24,884 nucleotides of DNA from a virus. Location: positions 1 through 24,884 of the IMG/VR virus record IMGVR_UViG_3300006735_000233; one strand, 5' to 3'. The position numbers and the translations under genes are program-made. Positions within the stretch are counted from its first letter, which is position 1; every line of letters starts with the position of its first letter. The notes under the pieces were generated by a model, which worked only from the letters and a program-made list of their open reading frames with translations, had not been told where the DNA came from and did not search any database. Below are positions 4,975 through 19,412 of the stretch, piece by piece.

Positions 4975-6773
4975 CTATCTCCATCCCTTCTTAAATCAAC
5001 TCTATTTGTTCCAAGTCTCCAATTAACTTTTGGTGTAGTGCTTTCAACTCTTAATCCAAAAGATCTGCCTCTTAATCTTAAATGATTGATTTCTGTTGAT
5101 GATGTTACAATATTTTCAGATGTTTTTACAAAACCACCATTAGGAGATCTTTGTGCTTTTAATGAAAACAAAGCTTTTTTATCGCTTTCATTTATATCAT
5201 TATCACTATTATCAAAGCTAACGTCAGGTATCATTCTTCTCAAAAATACAAATTGATCACCATCTTGTATATCTATAGGACTTGATTGTATAAATGATGT
5301 AAAAGCAGTGCCATCATTATCATTACCCTTTTCATGGTTGTACAAAAGATTAGAGTCAGTGGCTATAGGATATTGATAAACTCCACGATCTAACCACGAA
5401 CTTCTTTTTAAGTTACCTACATACCATATTTTTTGATCATAATTATACACTACATATTTATCATTTTCTCCATCACCACCATTTGATACTGAATTTGTGG
5501 TTGATGGATAAAACCAAAAGACCTCTCCAAAAGCTGAATTTACTCCTGCATAAACTTTACCTGCTTGATTTTCATTAAAATCTCCAAGTACAAAATCTCT
5601 AACAGAACATGGAATCACTTGGACACGACCATCATATATATAAAAACGATCATAGCCCATCCACATAACAGCATCACCTACAGCAATTGCACTGTTAAAT
5701 CCACGGACAGTTATCGCACTAGCTAATTGATTTATACCAAAAGTAAAAGGTGGTCCTATAAATTGCATACTATGTACAGAAGTATCTGTTAAAATAATTA
5801 TTTCTCTTCTTGTTTTGACTGCTGTAATTATCTCTGATCCTGAACCTATTCTTAAACTACCTGCAGTATTTGTAGCAGATGGTGTCCAAAAAAAAGGATT
5901 TTCTTGAGAGCTAAATCTAACTAAAAGTCTATCTTGTTCCTGAGAACCTAAAGGACTTGCTCCAAAACAAATAACATGACGATCTCGTTCAGAGACTATT
6001 ACTTTTCTTGATTTAAAAGGAGCTGCGTCAGATAATTCTAAAAATGACTTAGCCCGTGTGCTTGTGCCAAGAGTTTTGTCCCAGTAAAATAAAAAACCAT
6101 CTCTCTGATTAAATATTAAATCCTCTCCAAAATTATCTTGAGACCATAAACGTAGTGATTCTCCAGTAATTGTATCGTTGGATCTTTCTCCCCATCCTGT
6201 AAAATCATCAGTGGAATTTGTATTACCAGTGGCTAACTGTACAATACTTCCGTCAGCATGAGCAGATGCTGTTGTTCCCTCAGATCCTCTTGTAACTGTT
6301 AAATTATTTGAAGAGACATTTGTAACTGTTAATAATTCATTATCAATCAATATAACATCTGTTGCGACAATTCCAGAAGCAGTAGTGACAGTAAGCGTTG
6401 TATCAGAATTAGAAAATTCTGCACCCTCATTTATTGTTGTAGTTAAAGCAAAGCTATTTGTACCACCCCATTTTCCTGCACCCCAACCAGTACCAGGCAC
6501 AACAGTGTTTATACCTATATTAAACTGATATTCGGCATCAGCAGAGCCAGCTCCTGTAAGAGCTGCATCAGCATTACCACTTAAAGTTATTACATAATTT
6601 GCACTATCAGTTACAGATGTTATAGAAAATTCATTGTCTAGTTTAGTATTTAGAGCACTGTTTCCAGTATTAGCGTTACTAAATGTAACGAAACTACCAG
6701 TTCCAGCTCCATGATTAGGATCATTAACAGTTACCGAAGCAGAAGATGTAGTTGTTGTAAATGTTATTGCCAT
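4971..6773 (-). CDS. P22-stabilisation-like tail protein, C-terminal (main) part of a split gene
   Basis: I place the start at the ATG at 6773 (600 residues), four bases after the TAA codon of the upstream gene begins (TAA-A-ATG). An in-frame ATG at 6806 would add 11 residues, but has no ribosome-binding site and overlaps the upstream gene. The protein is beta-rich. An N-terminal Thr/Ser/Asn domain is followed by the motif GTGWGAGKWGG near residue 95. Next comes an inserted repeat-like domain containing TVTRGSEGTTASAHADGS (about 158-176). The long C-terminal domain begins at RLWSQDNFGEDLIFNQRDG. The layout matches podoviral stabilisation-type tail proteins (P22 gp10-like). In related phages I recall this region being fused to the RPGINKE-type domain encoded here by the separate upstream gene. 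Confidence 0.8.
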   Translation of the reverse strand: MAITFTTTTSSASVTVNDPNHGAGTGSFVTFSNANTGNSALNTKLDNEFSITSVTDSANYVITLSGNADAALTGAGSADAEYQFNIGINTVVPGTGWGAGKWGGTNSFALTTTINEGAEFSNSDTTLTVTTASGIVATDVILIDNELLTVTNVSSNNLTVTRGSEGTTASAHADGSIVQLATGNTNSTDDFTGWGERSNDTITGESLRLWSQDNFGEDLIFNQRDGFLFYWDKTLGTSTRAKSFLELSDAAPFKSRKVIVSERDRHVICFGASPLGSQEQDRLLVRFSSQENPFFWTPSATNTAGSLRIGSGSEIITAVKTRREIIILTDTSVHSMQFIGPPFTFGINQLASAITVRGFNSAIAVGDAVMWMGYDRFYIYDGRVQVIPCSVRDFVLGDFNENQAGKVYAGVNSAFGEVFWFYPSTTNSVSNGGDGENDKYVVYNYDQKIWYVGNLKRSSWLDRGVYQYPIATDSNLLYNHEKGNDNDGTAFTSFIQSSPIDIQDGDQFVFLRRMIPDVSFDNSDNDINESDKKALFSLKAQRSPNGGFVKTSENIVTSSTEINHLRLRGRSFGLRVESTTPKVNWRLGTNRVDLRRDGDR

Positions 6774-7372: not shown

Positions 7373-7957
7373 TTAATGTGAAAAATGTCTATACCAACCC
7401 GTGGCTATATATTTAATATTACTAATAGGTGGATTACCTCTATGAGTGTGAGTAAAATAGGCTGGAAATAAAACCATAGATCCTATTTTCGGCTTAATTC
7501 TCATAGAATAATTTAAAAACTCAAGCTCTCCACCTTCTTCAACATCATTTAAAAAAATGCTCCAAGCTAAAAATCTTGTTTTGCTTTCGTATGGACCAGC
7601 GTTATTTTCACTATGCCAATTATGAAAGCCACCAGAAATAGGCGTTTCTTGAAATTTAAAGTTTTCAAAAAAAATATTACCATCTTCAAAAAATGAAGAA
7701 CAATTGTTCGGAAAAATTTGTTTGTATAAATTTAAATATTCATCTAATGCTTTTGAAAAAACTTTAGAACAATCATCTGTGGTCATGGATTCTAAAGTTG
7801 ACTGCCCATCCCATTGTTTGTCTACTCTTTGTGGTTGATTCGAAACTATAAAATTATTTTGTGAATTTAATTTTTCAATAATTTTTTCACAAATTTTTGG
7901 TTTTATAGCATTATCAATAGTAACGATAAAGTTTTTTACATCCACTATTTTATCCAT
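7373..7957 (-). CDS. 2OG-Fe(II) oxygenase-like protein, HxE variant (cassette)
   Basis: This 194-residue protein has a strong GGAGG ribosome-binding site before the ATG at 7957. The double-stranded beta-helix core is recognisable. The first metal pair is probably H115-S-E117 in FHNWHSENN, with Glu in place of the more common Asp. The beta-turn EEGGELEF lies at 140-147. The distal ligand lies in YFTHTHRGNPP (H170 or H172). K182 in IKYIATGWYR sits where the 2-oxoglutarate-binding Arg/Lys is expected. It belongs to the prolyl-4-hydroxylase-like oxygenases common in marine phages. Such enzymes use Fe(II), O2 and 2-oxoglutarate to hydroxylate a protein or small molecule; the substrate cannot be told from the sequence. 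It is the last gene of the cassette. Confidence 0.88.
   Translation of the reverse strand: MDKIVDVKNFIVTIDNAIKPKICEKIIEKLNSQNNFIVSNQPQRVDKQWDGQSTLESMTTDDCSKVFSKALDEYLNLYKQIFPNNCSSFFEDGNIFFENFKFQETPISGGFHNWHSENNAGPYESKTRFLAWSIFLNDVEEGGELEFLNYSMRIKPKIGSMVLFPAYFTHTHRGNPPISNIKYIATGWYRHFSH
7698..7709. repeat. 12-bp palindrome GAACAATTGTTC
   Basis: A perfect 12-bp palindrome lies inside the oxygenase gene at 7373-7957, followed by G so that the right flank also matches the 14-bp form CGAACAATTGTTCG. It is part of the repeated palindrome family found at 868-883 and 22567-22580. Confidence 0.5.
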
Positions 7958-7972
7958 TATTAAAGTCCTCCT

Positions 7973-9109
7973 CTACCAAAACATAAGATATGCGTCACCA
8001 ACTCTTGAAAGAACATATTGTTTCATTCTTTTAAAAGCAAAATCTAAATCATTTAATAAAATTTCAATGTCCTCTGTGCCAGTATAAATTCTTAAATATT
8101 GACCAGACGGCACATAACTTGATTTTAATTTTCTAATTTTAGATACGTCTGTTGTTGCTAATAAACTATGATTCCCCCCCCACGAAGTGCCTATTTTAAA
8201 TATCTTACAATTATTTACTAATTCATTTACAGCTTCTTTTGAAATATTATCTTTAAACTCCACAGCAAAAACACCAGAAGCACCTTTAAAATATTTTTTC
8301 CATACTTGATAATCTGGATGACTTTCTAAAGCAGGGTGAATGACTTGTTTTATTTCTTCTTTACTTTCTAAAAACTTTGCTATTTCAATACTATTATTAG
8401 ATGATTTTTTTAATCTAATAGACAATGTATCTAAACCTCTTAGAACTAAATAAGCATCATCAGAACTAACACATATTCCACTGTTTCTGCACCATCTTTG
8501 TAGTTCTGATAAATATTTTTTGTTAGCTAAAGTCACACCCATCAATACATCCGAATGACCTGAGGCGTATTTACTTATAGCTTCAATAACAATATCAGCA
8601 CCAAAATCAAATGGATTTAAATATAAAGCAGTTGCCCAAGTATTATCTACAATGGATTTTAAATTACGTTTTTTACAAATTCGAAGTACATTTTTTACAT
8701 CTGCTAATTCAAAGGTATATGCACCAGGACTTTCAACATAGATTGCTCTTGTATTTCTTTTTATTAAAGTTTCTAATTTTTTTAAATTTCTTGGATTATA
8801 AAAAGTAAACTCTATTTGTAGTCTAGGAAACTCTTGTTCAATGTATCTTCTTGCAGATTCTAGTACACAGTCTGGTATCAAAATATGATCTTTTGATTTT
8901 AAAATTGACATCAATGCTACTGTTATAGAAGTCATACCAGAAGGTGTTAAAACGCAACCATGTGCATTATAAAGATTAGACAAACGATTAATTAATAAAT
9001 TAGTTGTTGGTGTACCCTCTCTTCCATATTTATTTTTAGTTCTAAAATCTTCCATGTTAGAACTTGTAATTGTAGTTGCTCTATGGATGGGTGGAGACAA
9101 TGTACTCAT
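7973..9109 (-). CDS. metC-like: Cystathionine beta-lyase-like PLP enzyme (MetC family)
   Basis: This 378-residue protein matches the full length of the Cys/Met-metabolism PLP family. Visible landmarks are YGREGT (28-33), the phosphate-binding loop TPSGMTS (55-61), VESPGAYTFE (125-134), the pyridine-nitrogen Asp in DNTW (155-158), and the Schiff-base lysine K180 in SKYASGHSDVLMG. RGLDTL (224-229), the substrate-side SWGG (309-312) and R340 in LRIYTG follow. GHSD after the lysine and SWGG near the C-terminus are typical of cystathionine beta-lyase rather than gamma-synthase. The expected reaction is cystathionine to homocysteine, pyruvate and ammonia, though C-S lyases of this fold are promiscuous. 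Its ATG overlaps the stop of the upstream oxygenase gene (ATGA). It is not a standard phage gene. An eight-G run encodes part of SWGG. Confidence 0.9.
   Translation of the reverse strand: MSTLSPPIHRATTITSSNMEDFRTKNKYGREGTPTTNLLINRLSNLYNAHGCVLTPSGMTSITVALMSILKSKDHILIPDCVLESARRYIEQEFPRLQIEFTFYNPRNLKKLETLIKRNTRAIYVESPGAYTFELADVKNVLRICKKRNLKSIVDNTWATALYLNPFDFGADIVIEAISKYASGHSDVLMGVTLANKKYLSELQRWCRNSGICVSSDDAYLVLRGLDTLSIRLKKSSNNSIEIAKFLESKEEIKQVIHPALESHPDYQVWKKYFKGASGVFAVEFKDNISKEAVNELVNNCKIFKIGTSWGGNHSLLATTDVSKIRKLKSSYVPSGQYLRIYTGTEDIEILLNDLDFAFKRMKQYVLSRVGDAYLMFW
8174..8181. repeat. Homopolymer C8 (G8 on the coding strand) inside the metC-like gene
   Basis: Eight consecutive C on the plus strand read TCG-TGG-GGG-GGG-AAT on the coding strand and encode Ser-Trp-Gly-Gly-Asn. 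No other G/C run of this length was noticed in this AT-rich window. The tract is currently in frame. Confidence 0.7.
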
Positions 9110-9687
9110 GGAATTTGAACATCTACTTTAATATTACCTGAACATATTACACTATCTCGACCAAAAGATCTGTGTGGCAACCAACCTGGAAATAGTATTA
9201 TATCTCCTTCTTGAACTGTTATTTCATGTTCTTTATTTTCTGCTATAAATAAAATTTTTCTAATATCATCACATTTTAAATACCAAACAAAACTATAATA
9301 ACCAGGTGCAGATCGATGTGTATGTAATTCAAAATGTGTTTGTTCTGTAAACTCAGTCATCCACATATCCATCATATCCATGTTTTTCGGATATCTTACA
9401 ATAGCGTCTCTTAAACTAGTGCAGTAATGAGTGCAATCAACAAACAAGTCTAACAACACATTTGAAATATATGGTTTAATGTATTTATCTTGTATTTCTA
9501 TAATTTGATGTAAGTCCATTTTACTAAAAAACTTTGGCTCAACACAAGATCTTACTTTATTATTTACTACATATTCATTCTGTATGGGATATTTTTTTAC
9601 ATCATCAATAAAAGACTTGTTAATACTTCTTGTTATTTTACCAAGAGCTATTTTTGTAGGTGTCATTATTGAATATACGGAGTTCAT
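9106..9687 (-). CDS. 2OG-Fe(II) oxygenase-like protein (2OG-FeII_Oxy_5-like) (cassette)
   Basis: This is a 193-residue protein. Its ATG overlaps the stop of the QueC-like gene (ATGA), and its own stop overlaps the metC-like start in the same way. The motif HFELHTHRSAPGYYSFVWYL (118-137) supplies the first metal histidine (H122 or H124). EGDIILFPGWLPHRS (160-174) supplies the distal one (H172). The H-x-H with a following Ser/Gly/Tyr strand, and the FPGWLPH strand, resemble the putative 2OG-Fe(II) oxygenase family PF13759 found in cyanophages and pelagiphages. Residues 1-80 are a helical N-terminal part without clear motifs. The substrate is unknown; a cupin-like non-catalytic role cannot be excluded because the acidic ligand is not obvious. 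Confidence 0.82.
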   Translation of the reverse strand: MNSVYSIMTPTKIALGKITRSINKSFIDDVKKYPIQNEYVVNNKVRSCVEPKFFSKMDLHQIIEIQDKYIKPYISNVLLDLFVDCTHYCTSLRDAIVRYPKNMDMMDMWMTEFTEQTHFELHTHRSAPGYYSFVWYLKCDDIRKILFIAENKEHEITVQEGDIILFPGWLPHRSFGRDSVICSGNIKVDVQIP

Positions 9688-10370
9688 AATGGATTACCTT
9701 CTTTATCAATAATACCATATTTTTTATGTGATTTACATTTAGGACATATATCACAAGTCCAATCACCTGAGTTACAACTTCTAACTAATTTTTTTAAATC
9801 CATTTCCAAAGAATCCCAAGATTCTTTTTTGTTTTTAAAACTATCTATGCCAGTGCCTTTGTAAATTGTAGCTGGAGTGCAATACTGAATATCTTGATTA
9901 GTGCCTCTATTTCCTACATCCAAAAAATATTGAAAGTTTTCGTGAGTGAAATATCCAGGATAAGTGCCTAAACCATAAAAATCATCAGGGTTGTATCTAT
10001 CTTTTAAGATATCGTCAGAAAAAGTAAAATGCCCTATCCACATTTTTTTTATTCCATAAGTATTACAGAACTGAGAAGCAAAAAAAGCACCCCATTGATT
10101 ATCAGAACCAAAATAACTGCGTTCATCATGCTCGTCTAAAGTTGTTAACACAGTGGCTTGTGAATACTCAAAGTCACCATATTTTTCTCTCACATATTTA
10201 AGAACATTATTCGCTGCAATGTTTTGTAATCTAATTCTTGGTTGTGCTCTTTTTGCCCAACCCATTTCAATATAAAGCACTCTTACTTTTTTCTTTTCTT
10301 GCAAAAAGTGTTTTAGTAATACTGTGCTATCTATACCCCCTGAGAAAAGAAGTAATTCTGTATCACTCAT
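9684..10370 (-). CDS. queC-like: QueC-like PP-loop ATPase with Cys4 zinc site (cassette)
   Basis: This is a 228-residue protein, the usual length for QueC (7-cyano-7-deazaguanine synthase). The N-terminus has the PP-loop SGGIDS (10-15) that binds and cleaves ATP to AMP and pyrophosphate. The C-terminus has C199-x6-C206-x2-C209-x2-C212, like the zinc-binding cysteine cluster of QueC. Between them, WIGHFTFSDD (111-120) lies where QueC has its substrate loop, but the match there is weak. True QueC converts 7-carboxy-7-deazaguanine to preQ0. No queD, queE, folE or transglycosylase gene is in the window, so the substrate may differ. QueC-like proteins also occur in antiphage operons (QatC, type IV CBASS), so the fold is used outside queuosine synthesis. 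It is coupled to the downstream oxygenase by an ATGA overlap. Confidence 0.85.
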   Translation of the reverse strand: MSDTELLLFSGGIDSTVLLKHFLQEKKKVRVLYIEMGWAKRAQPRIRLQNIAANNVLKYVREKYGDFEYSQATVLTTLDEHDERSYFGSDNQWGAFFASQFCNTYGIKKMWIGHFTFSDDILKDRYNPDDFYGLGTYPGYFTHENFQYFLDVGNRGTNQDIQYCTPATIYKGTGIDSFKNKKESWDSLEMDLKKLVRSCNSGDWTCDICPKCKSHKKYGIIDKEGNPL

Positions 10371-10375
10371 ATAAA

Positions 10376-11011
10376 CTAACCCTTTGGAAAATTTTCAGAA
10401 ATAAGAGTGGGTCTTGAATATGCTCTGTCATTAATATACTCAAGTCTTGGTCCTGCTCCAAAGTAATTTATATTAATAGTTATTCTAAAAGGAACATTAG
10501 TTGGCGAGGAGCTTGAATGTGGTGTTGCTGCATTAAAAATCAACAATCTGTTTTCTATGGCTTCTATCTCTGTGCCATCTGCCATGTAAGTTGGAGCATC
10601 ACACGCAGTCACATAAAACAAAGCTCCTTGATGAAACATTTCATAATCTATATGTGGTGCGTGTATATTATGAGCTCCTGTTCTAACATACAAGTTAGCT
10701 TTAATTCTCATCAAAGCATTAATATGTATTTTGGATGTCAAGTTTATAAATGGATTTATATCAACATCTTTTCTCCATTGATCTGTTGCATAGTCTTGGA
10801 CATTAAATATAAGTTTAGCAAGATAAAAGTCTTCATTTGATGTATCGTATGCATTTATTTTTTGACTTACATTCCAACCCATTCCTGTAGTCATATAATC
10901 CTTCAACAAACCAAAATCTTGCAACGGAAGAAAATTGTCCCACACAGCATAATAACAGTCACCAAAGGTGCTAAACTCGCTACACTTTTTTGTAAATTCA
11001 TTTTTATCCAT
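10376..11011 (-). CDS. 2OG-Fe(II) oxygenase-like protein with HxD...H...R (cassette)
   Basis: This is a 211-residue protein with an AAGGA ribosome-binding site nine bases before the ATG. The facial triad is easily placed: H120-I-D122 in HAPHIDYE and H165 in NAATPHSSSSP. R176 in FRITININYF is the expected 2-oxoglutarate-binding arginine. The strand FHQGALFYVTACDAPTYM between them fits the double-stranded beta-helix. Families with this layout are common in marine phages, where they are annotated only as oxygenases. It differs strongly from the other four in the cassette, so a simple local duplication is unlikely. The substrate is unknown. Confidence 0.87.
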   Translation of the reverse strand: MDKNEFTKKCSEFSTFGDCYYAVWDNFLPLQDFGLLKDYMTTGMGWNVSQKINAYDTSNEDFYLAKLIFNVQDYATDQWRKDVDINPFINLTSKIHINALMRIKANLYVRTGAHNIHAPHIDYEMFHQGALFYVTACDAPTYMADGTEIEAIENRLLIFNAATPHSSSSPTNVPFRITININYFGAGPRLEYINDRAYSRPTLISENFPKG

Positions 11012-11022
11012 ATCTATTCCTT

Positions 11023-11586
11023 TTATCTAAATGATGGACCAAGAAACCAACTCACTAGACTATACCTGATACCTTTAGTGACTGGTTGGACTCCGTGATT
11101 TAAATAAGACGGAAAGAAAACAACTGTTCCTTGTTCTCTTGCATCTTCTTGTACAAAATTTTGTTTATCGTCTGGAAACTCTAACTGACCACCTTCATAA
11201 TATTCAGGTGATGTAAGTTGTGCAGACATCGATAGTTTTCTAACTGGTTGATTTGGTGGGTTTTCGTAAAAACCATCTATATGTGGTTTGTAAAAACCTT
11301 TATTTTTTTCATCATATTTAGTTAATTGAAATGTTTCTGGTTCTATTAAAGTAAATTGATAAAATTCTTTGTTAACTCTATCTACTAATTCAAGTATTGG
11401 TTTATATAGTTCAAAATATTTAAGGCTACCATTAAAAAAACAAATTTCACTATCTCTTATTTTTTTGTTTACCTCGCCATCTCCAATACTACCTTTGAAA
11501 ACCATCTCATTTTTTTGTAGCTTAATTATGTTCTCACAAAATTCTGAAGATAGTGCTTTTTTTGCTACAATTATGTTTCTTTTCAT
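11023..11586 (-). CDS. PKHD-type 2OG-Fe(II) oxygenase / prolyl hydroxylase-like protein (cassette)
   Basis: This 187-residue protein shows the classic PKHD/PiuC-type signature. H102-I-D104 sits in YKPHIDGF and the turn EGGQLEF at 131-137. VVFFPSYLNHGVQPVTKGIR (155-174) holds H164, and R174 precedes YSLVSWFLGP. All residues for Fe(II) and 2-oxoglutarate binding are present, so it should be catalytically competent. Members of this family hydroxylate proline or related residues in proteins, or act in iron-linked processes; the target here is unknown. Its ATG overlaps the stop of the first cassette gene (ATGA), so the two are translated together. Confidence 0.9.
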   Translation of the reverse strand: MKRNIIVAKKALSSEFCENIIKLQKNEMVFKGSIGDGEVNKKIRDSEICFFNGSLKYFELYKPILELVDRVNKEFYQFTLIEPETFQLTKYDEKNKGFYKPHIDGFYENPPNQPVRKLSMSAQLTSPEYYEGGQLEFPDDKQNFVQEDAREQGTVVFFPSYLNHGVQPVTKGIRYSLVSWFLGPSFR

Positions 11587-12122
11587 TGTGTGACTGCCGT
11601 GTCATGGTATAAATCTGGTCTTTTGTCGTACTTATATTCTGGATAATATTGACCATCTTTTTCTATATAATGAAGAAAGACTTGACGATGCCAATCATAT
11701 TTAAGTTCGTGTCTCCAATGCTCTTGAACACAACCATTATATATAACACCCTCACCAACATTTAACTTAAAAATTTCATCCTCTACATTTATCGACCATA
11801 TATCTTCTTTGTGAGAGGCATCTATACAAAGAGTTACACTCACTTCACAACTGGGTCTATCTTTGTGAGGTGGACAATCTTGTGTTTTAAAATAAGTTCT
11901 CCAAAAAGAATAGGTTGGCACTAATTCTTTTCCATAAGATTCTTCTATTTTTGGTTTAATAAAATTTAGTAAATTTTCAAAAACTGGATCAGCGTACACA
12001 CTTTTTGATCCAGCAAACATTTCATCTTTACTTGGTTGTATTTGATTTTCTACATGTGCCATATGCATAGACAAACATCTAGCATGGTCTTGTTCTAAAA
12101 GTTTTAATTTTTTATTGATCAT
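11583..12122 (-). CDS. 2OG-Fe(II) oxygenase-like protein, first gene of the cassette
   Basis: This is a 179-residue protein. The metal pair is probably H86-K-D88 in PPHKDRPSCEVSVTL. The distal histidine lies in GCVQEHWRHEL (H135 or H138). HRQVFLHYIEKDGQYYPEY (145 onward) gives the end of the beta-helix and a candidate 2-oxoglutarate-binding Arg (R146). The pattern HxD, then a CID...W strand, then GEGVIYNG is typical of phage and marine bacterial 2OG oxygenases of unknown substrate. The gene starts after a 52-base gap. Its ribosome-binding site (AAGG) lies at the edge of a hairpin. The leader AAGGTAGCAAAAG is nearly the same as the one before the gene at 17058-17777. Confidence 0.86.
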   Translation of the reverse strand: MINKKLKLLEQDHARCLSMHMAHVENQIQPSKDEMFAGSKSVYADPVFENLLNFIKPKIEESYGKELVPTYSFWRTYFKTQDCPPHKDRPSCEVSVTLCIDASHKEDIWSINVEDEIFKLNVGEGVIYNGCVQEHWRHELKYDWHRQVFLHYIEKDGQYYPEYKYDKRPDLYHDTAVTQ

Positions 12123-12174: not shown

Positions 12175-12555
12175 TTATGACCAAGGAAAAGAAGCTACGA
12201 AATTACCATCAGAATCATTACTGCCTTTAGGAGAAGAGCCATTAACTTTTTCTTGAAAGTCAATATCAGCCTCTATCTCTGCTTTAATATTTGCTAGTAT
12301 TGAAGAATCTATTCTGTTTTCAACCCATGTCTTAACATCTGCTTCTTTAACAGATCCATATGCAGTAAAGCTACTATCTATATTGTCTACATTCATGTCT
12401 AAATCAAAACCACCTTCAGCAGATATGCTACCAATTGTTTCACTAGTTCCTGTCAATGTTGCATCAACCCTAAGTATAGCATCAGTGTAAGTTTTTCCAC
12501 TTTTTGTAATATTTTTTGTGTATAATTTATTTATTTTCCAAGCATATGTTGCCAT
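12175..12555 (-). CDS. Small tail-region protein starting MATYAWKI, unknown function
   Basis: This 126-residue protein is coupled to the adhesin gene by a TAATG overlap. The beta-rich first half (MATYAWKINKLYTKN, TYTDAILRVDATLTGT) is followed by an acidic helix (VKTWVENRIDSSILANIKAE) and a Ser/Gly/Asn-rich tail ending in ASFPWS. Phage proteins with a MATYxWxI start, a beta sheet and a VxxWVE helix occur next to tail fibre genes in cyanophages and marine phages. Function is not known. Its position directly downstream of the adhesin makes a fibre partner or chaperone a reasonable guess. Confidence 0.8.
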   Translation of the reverse strand: MATYAWKINKLYTKNITKSGKTYTDAILRVDATLTGTSETIGSISAEGGFDLDMNVDNIDSSFTAYGSVKEADVKTWVENRIDSSILANIKAEIEADIDFQEKVNGSSPKGSNDSDGNFVASFPWS

Positions 12556-13859
12556 TATTCCGTGCCTCCTGAAACTGTGCCATTATTTGTAAAAGTTACG
12601 TTTGAAAATCCTTCTATTGATTTACCTGCTGCTCCAACGGCTCCAGCAGAACCACCACTAGAACCTGATGTTGATGAACTGGTGCCAGTTGTTCCTGTAG
12701 ATCCAGCAGAACCATCTGCTCCAAAATCTCCACCAGCACCTCCAGTAGCACCTGCACCACCATTTCCAGCAGAACCAGTTGATCCACTTGATCCACTTGA
12801 TCCAGAATCACCACCTGGTTGATTGTTAAAACCTCTACCTAAACCACCAGCACCACCAGCACCACCATTATGTCCAGTTACTTGTGTTTGCTGTTGTTGT
12901 GATTGTGGGTATTGTCTGTAAATAGCGTATCTTATTGATTGTCCCCAACCTTGTAATTCCATAGAAACACCTATAGGACTTGATTGCTGTTGAGGACCTC
13001 GGTAATAAGTATATTGACCTTGAGTATATGATGTAGAGTTATAAGGTAAATTAACAGTGCCTGGTGGTCCACCTCCAAATCTTGCTCTTGATCCATAAGT
13101 GTTGTTAGTTGTACCTTGATAAAGTGTAAAAGCATTTGATGCTGGACTTTGGTATGGACCAGGTGAACCATTTAATCGAACCCACATAGAAGCATTATCA
13201 CCTGGTGAATGTTGATAGGTTGGACCTTGTTGAGCAGTGGTCTGTTGTTGTTGTTGTTGAGAAAGATTGCCACCTTTACCTCCTCCTCCACCACCAGAGC
13301 CACCTCCACCTCCAGCTAGTAAACTTCCATTATTTACAAAAGTCACTGCTACAGAGGCTTTGAAAGCATCACCACCAGCAGATCCAGCAGACCCAGCACC
13401 ACTATTAGCACTTCCACCTGATCCACCTGCTCCACCAGCACCCATGATAGTTCCATTATTTGTGATAGTAATTGTACCATCACCACCACTATCTGCCTCA
13501 AGAGCATATTCAGAAGTGTTGTTTGTTCCTAAAGTTACTGAATCTGGAATGACTACATTTTTTGGATAGTCTACTCCATAATCTGTAGATCCAAACAAGT
13601 CAGATAAGTTTTGATCTGTAGCACCAGAGGAATATGTAAATGTAAAACTTTTAGCTTGATCGTAAAAATCACTTACATCTAAAGCACCACTTTCTGGAAC
13701 ACCTGCTGCATCATTTGTGGCAGGATTAGAGGGATGCTTTGCTCTAATGTTTGAGCCACCTCTGTAAAGATCGCCAAGACTGATGGCACTTGAACCACCA
13801 ACAAATTCTGTTCTTAACGCTGAAAACGATAGAGATTGTCCAGAGCTTGGTATCGTCAC
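12555..13859 (-). CDS. Gly-rich tail adhesin, gp38-like polyglycine protein
   Basis: This is a 434-residue protein starting with GTG at 13859, preceded by a full GGAGG ribosome-binding site. Residues 1-70 resemble the N-terminus of marine phage fibre proteins (SLSFSALRTEFVGGSS, ISLGDLYRGG). From about 128 it alternates strands of type TITITNNGTIMG with glycine runs at 139-164, 182-197 and 332-412, and ends with VTFTNNGTVSGG. This NNGTI/Gly-run design resembles T-even gp38-type adhesins, whose polyglycine loops pack into a sandwich and carry variable receptor-binding loops. Residues 198-330 are Gln/Tyr/Pro/Ser-rich and would be the variable part. Around 350-395 Gly falls mostly every third residue, collagen-like but nearly without Pro. 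It probably binds the host surface at the fibre tip. Confidence 0.8.
   Translation of the reverse strand: MTIPSSGQSLSFSALRTEFVGGSSAISLGDLYRGGSNIRAKHPSNPATNDAAGVPESGALDVSDFYDQAKSFTFTYSSGATDQNLSDLFGSTDYGVDYPKNVVIPDSVTLGTNNTSEYALEADSGGDGTITITNNGTIMGAGGAGGSGGSANSGAGSAGSAGGDAFKASVAVTFVNNGSLLAGGGGGSGGGGGGKGGNLSQQQQQQTTAQQGPTYQHSPGDNASMWVRLNGSPGPYQSPASNAFTLYQGTTNNTYGSRARFGGGPPGTVNLPYNSTSYTQGQYTYYRGPQQQSSPIGVSMELQGWGQSIRYAIYRQYPQSQQQQTQVTGHNGGAGGAGGLGRGFNNQPGGDSGSSGSSGSTGSAGNGGAGATGGAGGDFGADGSAGSTGTTGTSSSTSGSSGGSAGAVGAAGKSIEGFSNVTFTNNGTVSGGTE
13243..13259. repeat. Short (TTG)n tract encoding a Gln run in the adhesin
   Basis: The tract reads as five uninterrupted TTG units plus a partial one (CAA on the coding strand) and encodes six Gln at about residues 201-206 of the adhesin. 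A related Gln-rich stretch, QSQQQQ, is coded near 12890. In-frame slippage here would change loop length without breaking the gene. Confidence 0.6.
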
Positions 13860-13862
13860 CGA

Positions 13863-14954
13863 TTAACCTCCGTTAATAATTTGTTGCTTAAGCTGTTTTA
13901 ATTCATTGCTAAGTTCTTTGACTGCTTCCATCAAAACTGCTGTTAACTTACCGTAGTCTACAGATTTTGTTTGCATCTCATCATCTGCTGTTAACACTAT
14001 TTCTGGTACAATAGTTTCCATATCTTGTGCTAGAACACCAACTTGAGTTTTAGCATTTTCAACATCGTTTCTTTTGTAATAAATACCTTGCATCCTCATA
14101 ACTTTTTCTAAGGCATTATCAATAGGACTTATGTCTGTCTTTAATCTTTTATCAGAAAACGCAGTTACATCATTATTAAATGTTGCAGCACCTGCAGCAG
14201 ACATATCTATTGTTAAAGCAGTTATTTCACTTGTTGAATCTTGTCCTTTAATAATAAAGTCTTTATCGTCAACATCTGTGGCTATTACAAAATCACTTGA
14301 GGAATTTATAAATTTTGCGATTGTTGTGCCACCATCCTTAAAAATAATGTCTGCACCATCTGCATCTAAAGTGATATCTCCAGCAGAATCAAGTGTAATA
14401 GGATTTGCTGCTATTGTTACTCCAGTTGTACCATCATGTGTTAATGTTACATCATTGTCAGCACCCATGTTTAATATAGCAGAATCTGAGGTTAAACTTA
14501 GATCGTCTTGAACTTTTAAATCAACTACTGATAAAGACGCAAAAGCATCAGCGACTGCTGCTCCACTTCCTGCACCATCTAAATAAACTGCTTTAGCATC
14601 TCCAGGAGGAATAGTTACATTAGCACCACTACCTTGTGATATAATTATATTTTGTGATCCACTTGTTCCGTTTTCAATAATATGCACTCTTTTCATCGTA
14701 TTTGGACCGATAGTGATTGTGCATGCTGAATCTAATGTACCAGTATATTTAATATACATCGCTCTACCAGCATCACTAGCTCCATCTGCTATTGTACTTG
14801 TATGAGTATCAGCATTTGTCGTTATGGCTTCTGTGCCAAATCCAAGTGCTTCACCAATTAATTCTAAATTTGTATTTGTTGATGTACCCCAAGTTCCAGA
14901 TTCGTCACCTGTGGCTATCTCTTTCAACCTTAAATTATTAACATATGTTGCCAT
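13863..14954 (-). CDS. Tail fibre protein with C-terminal S74 intramolecular chaperone domain
   Basis: This is a 363-residue protein. The N-terminus (MATYVNNLRLKEIATGDESG, then TWGTSTNTN) is a common start of marine phage fibres. The middle is made of Asp/Thr/Ile beta repeats (SAGDITLDADGADIIFKDGG) that form trimeric shafts. The C-terminus from residue 267 is a Peptidase S74 chaperone: S267-D-K-R-L-K272 gives the Ser/Lys dyad. QVGVLAQDMETIVPEIV, DYGKLTAVLMEAVKEL and a terminal coiled coil follow. In this family the domain guides trimerisation and then cuts itself off just before the Ser. The start overlaps the stop of the upstream gene (TAATG). The gene lies between the repeat protein and the adhesin. 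Confidence 0.92.
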   Translation of the reverse strand: MATYVNNLRLKEIATGDESGTWGTSTNTNLELIGEALGFGTEAITTNADTHTSTIADGASDAGRAMYIKYTGTLDSACTITIGPNTMKRVHIIENGTSGSQNIIISQGSGANVTIPPGDAKAVYLDGAGSGAAVADAFASLSVVDLKVQDDLSLTSDSAILNMGADNDVTLTHDGTTGVTIAANPITLDSAGDITLDADGADIIFKDGGTTIAKFINSSSDFVIATDVDDKDFIIKGQDSTSEITALTIDMSAAGAATFNNDVTAFSDKRLKTDISPIDNALEKVMRMQGIYYKRNDVENAKTQVGVLAQDMETIVPEIVLTADDEMQTKSVDYGKLTAVLMEAVKELSNELKQLKQQIINGG

Positions 14955-16300
14955 TATGCGACCCTTTCAATCCAATTAGCCAATTGATCTGGCACAATTA
15001 AACTATAAACTTGCTCCTCGCCAGTAGAGACAGTAGCACTAACTCCTGTTAAAGATAACACACAAGACCCTATTTGTGCAACTCTATCTGAAGAAATATC
15101 TGATCCAAACAAATTATCGCCCTGTAATGATTGTGTAAGTGAGAAAGTTAATCCTGCTAATCCAGACACTACAGGACTTACATCAATGATTACTGTTTCA
15201 TTACCTAATCCAGTTGTTCCGACAACAGTTGTAACAGGTGCTCCAGTTGTTGTTAATAGGTCATAAACAATTGGAGTGTTAGCAGTATAACCCATCAAAT
15301 TGTGATTGTAACATTGGTAATGTAAAGTAGGTGCTTTTTCTGGAACAGTTATTAAAACATGCCTGTTTGTAGCTCCGTTAAAATTTGTATCATTTACATA
15401 TTCACTCTGAGTAACTTCAACGTCATCTAAATAATAAGTTATACCATTGGAATATGCAGTGCTTTTAGCTGCATCTTCATAAAAATTAATCGGATGACCA
15501 TCATTACTACTATGACTTTGATCCAATTTATAGGTGTTACGTTCATAAAGATCTAATTCAACGTCTGCTGTGGCAGTTGATCCGTCAATTGCATATTTAT
15601 TTGTTGACCCTTGATTGTAATAAGGATGATTTGAAGGATTACCAGAAACAACTGTAACTGTATAAGTTATTGTTGTAGCAGAATATGCACTTATTAATAT
15701 TGATGCAGAAACACCAGTAGCTGAAACAACTGCTCCTGCAGTTACGGACTCATCACCAAAACCTATTGTACCAGTTAATCCAGTTTCAACAACTCTAGCT
15801 CCAGCAGCAGCCAACACATCTCCAACTGCCGTTGTTCCTGCAACTCCAGTAACACTGAATGTACATGTTCCAGTAATTGTAGGAGTCTGAACAAGAGCTG
15901 ATGCAACATTAGTAGCTGGTGTTATGGTTTGCCCAACATCAGCAAATACACCACCACCCCATATGTGATCACCCCAAGCAGAGCTACCCCAACCAGATAA
16001 AAATCCAATTGTGGCTTCAAAACCAGTAACAGTTACACTTATAGGAATTGAAGCTACAGCGTTGCCAACAGACCCAGTGCTAGAAATTCCACTAACTGTT
16101 GTAACGTGCACACTGCTGGCTAACACAGTGCCTATAGATCCAGTTGCTTGTAAACCAGTTTCTACTACTGTAGATCCAGCAGTAGTGCCTTCATCACCAA
16201 CGGCTGTCGTACCAGCAACACCAGTAACGGCAAAAGAGGTGTTACCAATGCCACCCCATCCAACAGCACCCCAAGTGCCTTGTCCCCAGCCGTTAGCCAT
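14954..16300 (-). CDS. Beta-repeat tail protein with embedded cupredoxin-like domain
   Basis: This is a 448-residue protein. It starts with a Trp-Gly-rich motif (GWGQGTWGAVGWGG), repeated at 103-117 (GWGSSAWGDHIWGGG). Val/Thr/Gly repeats then include a duplicated unit (VTGVAGTTAVGD at 25-36 and 150-161). Residues about 211-345 form a different domain with a type 1 copper-site pattern: H269 in GHPINF, and C330, H333 and M336 in YQCYNHNLMG. The C-x2-H-x2-M spacing is that of amicyanin-like cupredoxins. Related domains in marine phage proteins share the YxLDQSxSSN...HP and C..H..MG pattern. The rest is beta-rich with a short hydrophobic C-terminus. Whether copper is bound is not shown by the sequence. 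It is probably a tail or fibre component. Confidence 0.82.
   Translation of the reverse strand: MANGWGQGTWGAVGWGGIGNTSFAVTGVAGTTAVGDEGTTAGSTVVETGLQATGSIGTVLASSVHVTTVSGISSTGSVGNAVASIPISVTVTGFEATIGFLSGWGSSAWGDHIWGGGVFADVGQTITPATNVASALVQTPTITGTCTFSVTGVAGTTAVGDVLAAAGARVVETGLTGTIGFGDESVTAGAVVSATGVSASILISAYSATTITYTVTVVSGNPSNHPYYNQGSTNKYAIDGSTATADVELDLYERNTYKLDQSHSSNDGHPINFYEDAAKSTAYSNGITYYLDDVEVTQSEYVNDTNFNGATNRHVLITVPEKAPTLHYQCYNHNLMGYTANTPIVYDLLTTTGAPVTTVVGTTGLGNETVIIDVSPVVSGLAGLTFSLTQSLQGDNLFGSDISSDRVAQIGSCVLSLTGVSATVSTGEEQVYSLIVPDQLANWIERVA
15266..15670 (-). other. Cupredoxin-like domain region within the tail repeat protein
   Basis: Residues about 211-345 of the 448-residue protein lack the Val/Thr/Gly repeat pattern of the flanks. 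They contain the ordered ligand set His269, Cys330, His333, Met336 expected for a mononuclear type 1 copper site, or a structural remnant of one. Confidence 0.6.
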
Positions 16301-16305
16301 AGAAC

Positions 16306-16319
16306 CTCACAATTGTTCG
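16306..16319. repeat. Degenerate copy of the CGAACAATTGTTCG palindrome
   Basis: This 12-of-14 match lies in the 20-base gap before the ATG at 16300. On the minus strand it reads CGAACAATTGTGAG, and its GAG merges with the GAGG ribosome-binding site of the repeat-protein gene. It is one of the two copies of this palindrome family that lie outside coding sequence. Confidence 0.35.
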
Positions 16320-16320
16320 G

Positions 16321-16776
16321 TTAAGCTATACGAATAATAGCGTTAGAAGCGTCAGCAGTTGGAAATTGAATTGTAAATGTACCAGATGTTGAAGTCTTGT
16401 TAGATGTAAAATCTAATACACAAACAGCTTTGTTACTATCGGAACTATTGTAAATTAAAGCTCCCATTGCAGTAATTGTTGCAGTTGTAAAACTTAAATC
16501 TGCAAAATCTGTGAACGCAGTAGTACCAGATGTAGTTGGATCTACTCTTGTTAAACTTGCTCCACCTGTTGTATATGAACCACTTGAGGTTACTTCACCA
16601 GTTGTAACAAGTGCAGTTGTTGCTGCACCTAATGTTGCAGTTGTTGATGATTTAGCTCCAGTGCCTTCTGCAAAAAGTGCTAACTTAAAATCATCACCAC
16701 CAGAGTTTTTAAAATTGTGTACACCTTCTAATAACTCTTTTTTGAAGGAAGTACACATTGCTTGTGCTATAGCCAT
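16321..16776 (-). CDS. Conserved marine-phage virion-type protein (MAxAQAMCTSFK family)
   Basis: This 151-residue protein has a strong AAGGAGAC ribosome-binding site. The pattern MAIAQAMCTSFKKELLEGVH, Thr/Ser-rich strands, AFTDFADLSF, ALIYNSSDSNKAVCVLDF and a final FPTADASNAIIRIA is one I recognise from many uncultured marine phages. It is always found in the tail/fibre region. It is beta-rich with a short N-terminal helix, suggesting a virion or decoration protein. Its molecular role has not been established as far as I know. Confidence 0.85.
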   Translation of the reverse strand: MAIAQAMCTSFKKELLEGVHNFKNSGGDDFKLALFAEGTGAKSSTTATLGAATTALVTTGEVTSSGSYTTGGASLTRVDPTTSGTTAFTDFADLSFTTATITAMGALIYNSSDSNKAVCVLDFTSNKTSTSGTFTIQFPTADASNAIIRIA

Positions 16777-18433: not shown

Positions 18434-18744
18434 GTTATGCTCACTGTAACTGTACCAACCGAAGCTGTAGCACTAAAACTTGTTAATAAACTTCCTAAGT
18501 TACCTAATCCAGTATTAGTATAAACTATAAACTTTTTATTGTCATCCTCCACATCTGGTCTAGCATCTCTTATTGCTTCAAGATCAGTTCTTATTCTTGG
18601 TGGTGTTAGTTGTGGATGTTTTTCTTCATATTCGTCATATCCAACAATGCTACCATTCCATTCTTTTCTCATATCTTTAATACGATAACGAAATCCAGAC
18701 CTGTCAGATATCCTATAAGCATATTTACCTTTAGCAAAAGCCAT
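18430..18744 (-). CDS. Small conserved neck-region protein
   Basis: This 104-residue protein is coupled at both ends: TAATG with the gp4-like gene before it and ATGA with the adaptor gene after it. The conserved-looking part is YAYRISDRSGFRYRIKDMRK, EWNGSIVGYDEYEEKHPQL and LEAIRDARPD. The last 35 residues are a Ser/Thr/Val beta strand region (NLGSLLTSFSATASVGTVTV). I recognise the RISDRSGFRYRIKDMRKEWNG block from marine phage genomes, where it sits between neck proteins. Function is unknown. Confidence 0.85.
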   Translation of the reverse strand: MAFAKGKYAYRISDRSGFRYRIKDMRKEWNGSIVGYDEYEEKHPQLTPPRIRTDLEAIRDARPDVEDDNKKFIVYTNTGLGNLGSLLTSFSATASVGTVTVSIT

Positions 18745-19412
18745 TAGCCAACCTTATAGTAATCAAGTTTTGGAGTAATACTAAAAGAAGATCTATCTCT
18801 ATCTTCGCCTATTGCTCTCTCAAACTCCTCTTCATACACAGTTTTGAGTAATTGTATTCTGTCAGGAGCTCTTTTCATTGCAATATAATATGCAAGTCCA
18901 GCAGTTAAACACGGAAAAAATCTAAATGGTATCTCAAGTGTGTTAACTTGTGTGTCTGCATCCTGCATTCTAGTTAAAGCATCATAAACCAAAACATCTG
19001 TGCTATTTTCTGGTGTAGGATAGAGTTTTAAATTAGGTGTTATTTGTCTATCAAGAAAATATTGTGTTGGTCTACCAGTAGTTGATTTAGTTGGAATGTT
19101 AATGTAAGTGTCCCTACTAATTCTACTCATGCTAAAATCAGTTCCACTTCTTCTGACAACAACAGATAGGACATCAATAATGTCAGTATTGAAACTGTAT
19201 TCAGTTGTTCCTGATGTTAAAGCTTGAGTTCTTTGTTCGATGGTCCATTGATTCAAGCCACGATTTGCCCATTCAGCTAACATGATGTTCATTGAACGTC
19301 TAGCTGTTTGCAAATCGTAGCCTGTTCTAGCTTGTAAACCACATCTCTCAAAAGCCTCTTCAATGTACTCTGCTACATCTAACTCAAAGTTTGTGGAACT
19401 TGAGGTTGTCAT
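18744..19412 (-). CDS. P22 gp4-like neck / tail accessory protein
   Basis: This is a 222-residue protein. The helical N-terminus (DVAEYIEEAFERCGLQARTG, then LQTARRSMNIMLAEWANRGL) and the Trp-rich WTIEQRTQALTSGTTEYSF match P22 tail accessory factor gp4-type proteins. In podoviruses these bind under the portal and close the head. RRSGTDFSMSRISRDTYINI, a TTGRPTQYFLDR beta hairpin and a helical C-terminus follow. The start overlaps the stop of the small Met-rich gene (TAATG). Together with the stabilisation-like protein it identifies the phage as podovirus-like. Confidence 0.85.
   Translation of the reverse strand: MTTSSSTNFELDVAEYIEEAFERCGLQARTGYDLQTARRSMNIMLAEWANRGLNQWTIEQRTQALTSGTTEYSFNTDIIDVLSVVVRRSGTDFSMSRISRDTYINIPTKSTTGRPTQYFLDRQITPNLKLYPTPENSTDVLVYDALTRMQDADTQVNTLEIPFRFFPCLTAGLAYYIAMKRAPDRIQLLKTVYEEEFERAIGEDRDRSSFSITPKLDYYKVG

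Follow-up and report, generated by a model that had tools for sequence, protein, structure and literature searches.

A putative cupredoxin domain with a type 1 copper ligand set in a probable tail protein of a marine phage

The locus and its probable tail protein

The window analysed here is an entire viral record, a stretch of DNA of 24,884 bases. Its major head protein is 67–70% identical to those of phage DSL-LC04, phage 023Pt_psg01 and the Pelagibacter phages HTVC023P and HTVC027P and, therefore, the window very probably belongs to a marine phage like these. The first-pass annotation of the sequence had proposed a cupredoxin-like domain at 15266-15670 on the minus strand, which corresponds to residues 211-345 of the 448-residue protein encoded at 14954-16300 (Table 1). 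Translation and reading of the codons confirmed that H269, C330, H333 and M336 are present in the order, at the residue numbers and in the C-x2-H-x2-M spacing that had been given; the histidines of the protein are located at positions 65, 112, 225, 263, 269, 314, 327 and 333. Val/Thr/Gly repeats had also been described around the domain. They are found in the protein in degenerate form, but the DNA at 14900-16400 contains no tandem repeat.

Table 1 Genes and domain features of the window. Residue numbers refer to the 448-residue protein; numbering within the domain is given in brackets.
Feature	Position	Strand	Basis
2OG-Fe(II) oxygenase	7373-7957	-	above cut-off
Cys/Met-metabolism PLP enzyme	7973-9109	-	Pfam
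2OG-Fe(II) oxygenase-like protein, weak	9106-9687	-	below cut-off
QueC/PP-loop-like protein	9684-10370	-	Pfam
Protein without Pfam match	10376-11011	-	
2OG-Fe(II) oxygenase	11023-11586	-	above cut-off
Protein without Pfam match	11583-12122	-	
448-residue protein with copper-site domain, virion, probably tail appendage	14954-16300	-	ORF; beside Peptidase_S74 gene
C-terminal flank, residues 350-448	14954-15253	-	common to domain-less relatives
Putative cupredoxin domain, residues 209-349 (141 residues)	15254-15676	-	AlphaFold2, PDB fold matches
M336 codon, axial Met ligand (M128)	15293-15295	-	codon read; unchanged in 297 copies
H333 codon, second His ligand (H125)	15302-15304	-	codon read; unchanged in 297 copies
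C330 codon, Cys ligand (C122)	15311-15313	-	codon read; unchanged in 297 copies
H269 codon, first His ligand (H61)	15494-15496	-	codon read; unchanged in 297 copies
N-terminal flank, residues 1-205	15686-16300	-	common to domain-less relatives

The gene adjoins 13863-14954, which encodes a Peptidase_S74 tail-fibre chaperone (PF13884, E 5.9e-16), and the relatives of the domain are annotated as tail or baseplate proteins. From this position and these relatives we infer that the 448-residue protein is a tail protein, as had been stated before. The assignment is reasonable, but it does not come from the flanks: the sole significant PHROG match of the protein was phrog_30742 over residues 187-394, this match was reproduced by the domain alone, and the flanks alone gave no significant match in PHROG. 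A Gly/Gln-rich protein of 434 residues (12555-13859, minus strand), which matches phrog_10745 (unknown function), also adjoins the tail-fibre genes.

A block of metabolic genes (7373-12122, minus strand) is set between the structural genes and possibly encodes a modification pathway. Several iron enzymes had been claimed for the same operon; two 2OG-Fe(II) oxygenases were indeed above the cut-off, but the third candidate, at 9106-9687, was below it. No link between the 2OG-Fe(II) proteins and the copper-site domain was found.

Predicted fold of the domain

The structure of the 141-residue domain was predicted by AlphaFold2 from a 51-sequence alignment (A4) made up of the window and viral relatives, which gave a model with a mean pLDDT of 94 and a pTM of 0.88. 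In a monomer prediction of the full-length protein the domain was the sole confidently folded part, and the mean pLDDT elsewhere was poor (45). The top match of the domain model in the PDB by Foldseek was the cupredoxin AcoP (E 3.1e-3), followed by multicopper oxidase, nitrite reductase, laccases, rusticyanin and nitrosocyanin; no PDB match reached an E-value of 0.001 or better, and some Ig domains were among the weak matches. VIA-align placed the first domain of the Hyphomicrobium nitrite reductase (2dv6_A) on top (Z 8.7, rmsd 3.2, 104 aligned residues), and the best 50 listed entries all belonged to the cupredoxin superfamily.

Comparison of profiles pointed in the same direction. Alignment of the domain profile with four PF00127 proteins from cellular genomes by hhalign gave an E-value of 4.3e-6 (for a single comparison), which improved to 2.1e-8 when a fifth, bridging PF00127 protein, with a G-H-P-F and a C-x2-H-x2-M motif of its own, was added; with the more divergent profile A2 it was 1.9e-4 (again for a single comparison). 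PF00127 (Copper-bind) and PF13473 (Cupredoxin_1) did not match the window protein or the domain at an E-value of 1 or better, none of 20 members of A2 matched these two models at 0.1, and no cupredoxin model of Pfam or NCBIfam was above the cut-off for the domain. A sequence search of the PDB with the single sequence found nothing, and a profile search gave weak matches (E 0.1 to 0.4) that included plastocyanins and pseudoazurin and also two antibody chains. The C-x2-H-x2-M spacing is that of amicyanin; with amicyanin, plastocyanin and other PF00127 proteins the domain has the predicted fold, the order of ligands and the spacing in common. The type 1 copper proteins of PF00127 are soluble or single-purpose electron carriers, whereas the domain of the window is built as a module into a virion protein and is missed by the Pfam models.

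Because a Z-score of about 8 alone is rated middling by the note of the tool itself, the weight of the assignment lies in fold, ligands and profile all pointing the same way. The segment is most likely a true cupredoxin domain that is homologous to the blue copper proteins and has a His-Cys-His-Met type 1 site. Structure prediction with a search against cupredoxin folds had been proposed as a check of the first-pass annotation, and a barrel other than that of cupredoxins was not obtained; together with fold search, profile comparison and the conservation of the ligands described below, this supports the central claim that the domain is cupredoxin-like and has all of the type 1 ligands.

Conservation and loss of the ligands

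In 20 diverse copies of the domain seven columns were invariant (Y49, H61, F65, Y120, C122, H125 and M128 in domain numbering), the four ligands among them. A larger set of 297 nucleotide-distinct copies, partly retrieved by patterns over the ligands and restricted to copies with letters in all four ligand columns, had 94 well-covered columns, only four of which had no amino-acid change on the tree, and these were exactly the four ligands. By parsimony the codons had nevertheless changed synonymously 63 times for H61, 63 times for C122 and 60 times for H125; methionine has only one codon. An earlier count of 227 of 227 copies with intact ligands was set aside, since the retrieval and the seed model had partly favoured the motif.

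For a sample blind to the ligands, two DNA patterns that lie outside of them were used to scan the viral collection, which gave 211 loci among the matches listed. Such pattern scans prefer copies near the consensus, and the copies are to be read as samples of these matches. A script assigned the 211 distinct copies to canonical (191), altered spacing (2), deviating (13) and cut (5). The 13 deviating copies were re-read by eye: L530, L558 and L404 proved canonical, since the pattern of the script for the first His had been too narrow, L552 was cut and L485 was a partial copy. Six copies cut by contig ends and the partial one were removed, which left 204 complete copies. Among these matches, all four ligands were kept in 196 of the 204, with standard spacing in 194 and with one or two inserted residues in the other two (L524 and L415). 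The ligand set is thus not a product of chance, and this strong retention of the full type 1 site speaks for a role of the metal.

The proposed conservation of the ligands across phage homologues therefore holds for the large majority, but the full site is missing in 8 of the 204 copies. Cys and the second His were lost together in seven (L402, L423, L440, L444, L477, L479 and L543), two of which (L444 and L479) apparently represent one lineage, and in one copy (L592) the axial Met alone was changed, to Tyr. Loss of Cys alone or of the second His alone was not observed among the 204. A type 1 copper site predicts just this pattern, in which the axial ligand varies and Cys and His disappear only jointly; axial ligands do vary among cupredoxins. 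Since the domain persists in the seven copies without Cys and His, copper is not indispensable to the module everywhere. The idea that ligand-less copies always share their protein with an adjacent intact copy was rejected, as this applied to only one of the seven losses of Cys and His: in the viral protein L477 a ligand-less copy is followed by an intact one. The large proteins of S-RIM2 and P-RSM1 also contain a degenerate copy.

These data bear on the possibility that the domain is a metal-free, Ig-like scaffold whose residues are retained for folding alone. Some copies have neither Cys nor the second His and presumably still fold, the modular spread resembles that of phage Ig-like domains, and the top Ig-like Pfam match of the window protein was Ig_7 with an E-value of 0.081, albeit below the cut-off (13.7 against 27.3 bits); no Ig-like Pfam model was above its cut-off for this protein. 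The ligands as the only unchanged columns of 94, the joint loss of Cys and the second His, the single change of the axial Met on its own and the ranking of cupredoxins ahead of Ig folds by both Foldseek and VIA-align make this reading quite improbable. By the same token, a role in stabilisation of the fold alone, one of the functions considered by the first-pass annotation, is weakened by the near-invariant ligands and their concerted loss. A likeness in use is a different matter: phage Ig-like accessory domains are, like the domain of the window, exchangeable beta-sandwich modules of the virion surface and may work alike, although they are not known to have a metal site. That the site binds another metal in nature has a very slim chance. 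Cupredoxin sites do accept other metals in vitro, but His-Cys-His-Met is the classic copper ligand set and the PF00127 homologues from cellular genomes belong to a copper family.

Distribution and exchange among virion proteins

By tblastn with the domain of the window, 143 of 50,697 phage records were found at an E-value of 0.01, and a second query found 178 phage records at 0.001; with the second query the domain was not found in 72,556 plasmids. The carriers among the names listed are phages of Synechococcus, Prochlorococcus, Pelagibacter and Methylophilales as well as uncultured or unnamed phages, including marine viruses. In viral contigs two queries yielded at least 597 and at least 594 confirmed relatives. 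A redox or copper-binding domain on a phage tail had been called unexpected, a view that needs amending since the domain is widespread in marine phages, where it recurs in T4-like baseplate wedge proteins, T7-type tail fibres and the tail fibres of pelagiphages and methylophages. The carrier in P-HM2 is annotated as gp7, "baseplate wedge initiator", those in EXVC032P, Mosig, Melnitz and Bellamy as tail fibres, and S-TIM5 has the domain in a virion protein; the carriers annotated as tail fibres include those of Pelagibacter and Methylophilales phages.

A further 44 loci with the domain were found in bacterial and archaeal genomes. Phage genes are among them, for example L361 in a Pelagibacteraceae contig, which has a T7 tail-fibre N-terminal domain at its start (E 5.6e-37) and the copper-site domain near the other end. 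Some other loci look cellular, for example L368 of marine group II archaea, where the protein at 5026-6303 (plus strand) begins like a lipoprotein, continues with a collagen-like stretch and ends with the copper-site domain.

Presence and absence of the domain in one and the same protein were analysed in 80 relatives, kept from a search with residues 1-205 of the window protein. The domain was present in 59 of the 80, although in two of these it is incomplete and the Cys-His-Met stretch is absent; 14 full-length relatives lacked it, and seven were not judged (three were cut by contig ends, and in four the frame at the start of the match was very short). The domain-less relatives, 12 of them distinct, are 291-293 residues long; in the 12, the flanks are 55-71% identical to those of the window protein, and the gap lies at the ends of the domain. 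Such clean domain-less relatives show that the domain is gained and lost as a unit, and that related phages can do without it in this protein.

The module is common to different virion proteins. In 023Pt_psg01 (L168, 2995-4092), L398 and L543 the domain is followed, in frame, by a stretch like the start of the window protein at 18744-19412, which itself belongs to phrog_12985; the copy in L543 that precedes this stretch is the ligand-less one mentioned above.

A possible role in host contact

Taken together, we favour a reading in which the domain is a true type 1 cupredoxin that serves as an exchangeable module of virion surface proteins in marine phages, mostly tail fibres and proteins of the baseplate, and that probably acts in host contact; as a whole we give this a probability of about 60%. 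The type 1 site would hold copper within the virion, and the loaded module would serve in adhesion or recognition at that end of the tail appendages which meets the host, with the metal holding the ligand loop in shape and perhaps touching the receptor. Binding of copper in the virion is the firmer part and is quite likely, whereas action of the copper-loaded module as an adhesion or recognition domain in host contact is evenly balanced. The latter is suggested by the nature of the carriers as tail fibres and baseplate proteins, by the position of the domain near the far end of the T7-type fibre L361 and by its passage from one phage to another, as recognition modules typically show.

Known blue-copper domains carry electrons or form part of copper enzymes, and a type 1 site could also be redox-active here, exchanging an electron with a partner on the host surface or in the periplasm, or sensing the redox state there, and so triggering a change in the tail. 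The ligand set for electron transfer is complete in 196 of 204 copies, which is beyond the need of a scaffold, and many carriers are cyanophages. Yet the domain is also found in phages of non-photosynthetic hosts, no docking partner is known and the site is lost in some copies, so that we consider a redox function unlikely. A more far-reaching proposal is that the virions of many abundant ocean phages (of cyanobacteria, SAR11 and OM43) are copper metalloproteins and that a swappable blue-copper tail module recognises the host by copper chemistry, in the sense of redox sensing or a copper-dependent trigger, and decays repeatedly as a unit once it is unused; this is doubtful at present.

The copper itself could also be a bait for a metal-uptake receptor of the host. 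In known cupredoxins, however, the type 1 site is buried and rigid, and the window protein has no H-x-H pair. Such a Trojan horse is therefore highly unlikely, although the hosts are marine and there is a precedent for iron in tail fibres with H-x-H motifs, as proposed in PMC11705849. There, an iron-binding H-x-H site was proposed for tail fibres of the T4 gp37 type; a metal site on a tail appendage is common to both proposals, whereas fold, ligands and metal differ. According to PMC3037559, cyanophages carry petE, which encodes plastocyanin, as a metabolic gene. petE likewise is a cupredoxin gene of marine phages, but it stands alone and serves the metabolism of the host, whereas the domain of the window is fused into structural proteins.

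Cupredoxins and petE of cyanophages are already known and iron sites of tail fibres have been proposed, whereas a cupredoxin as a module of virion proteins appears to be new: the open-access literature searched, including passages of PMC11705849, PMC9004378 and PMC3037559, contained no description of a phage virion with such a domain. If the preferred reading of an exchangeable type 1 cupredoxin on the virion surface is true, the blue-copper fold would have a new location, as a plug-in of tail and baseplate proteins of phages, and probably a new function, and the virions of abundant ocean phages would carry an easily measured colour and metal signal. It would also bear on host recognition by phages of hosts that are hard to study and on a possible copper-carrying pool in seawater. 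The domain, at present annotated just as "tail fibre", "baseplate" or "hypothetical", would gain a name.

Copper-bind models do recognise another part of one viral carrier. The first 266 residues of a large viral structural protein (L340, 3-800, plus strand) have two stretches that match Copper-bind (PF00127) and also one YHYH domain, above the cut-off, and the protein contains copies of the window's domain as well. The Copper-bind copies have the C-x2-H-x2-M motif too, but they are shorter and plastocyanin-like and are partly cut by the end of the locus. Outside of phages, the structures predicted in BFVD for "beta-sandwich proteins" from Pithovirus and Marseillevirus records (A0A481Z6J5, A0A481YWX9 and A0A481Z7Q7) resemble the domain with E-values of 5e-7 to 2e-5.
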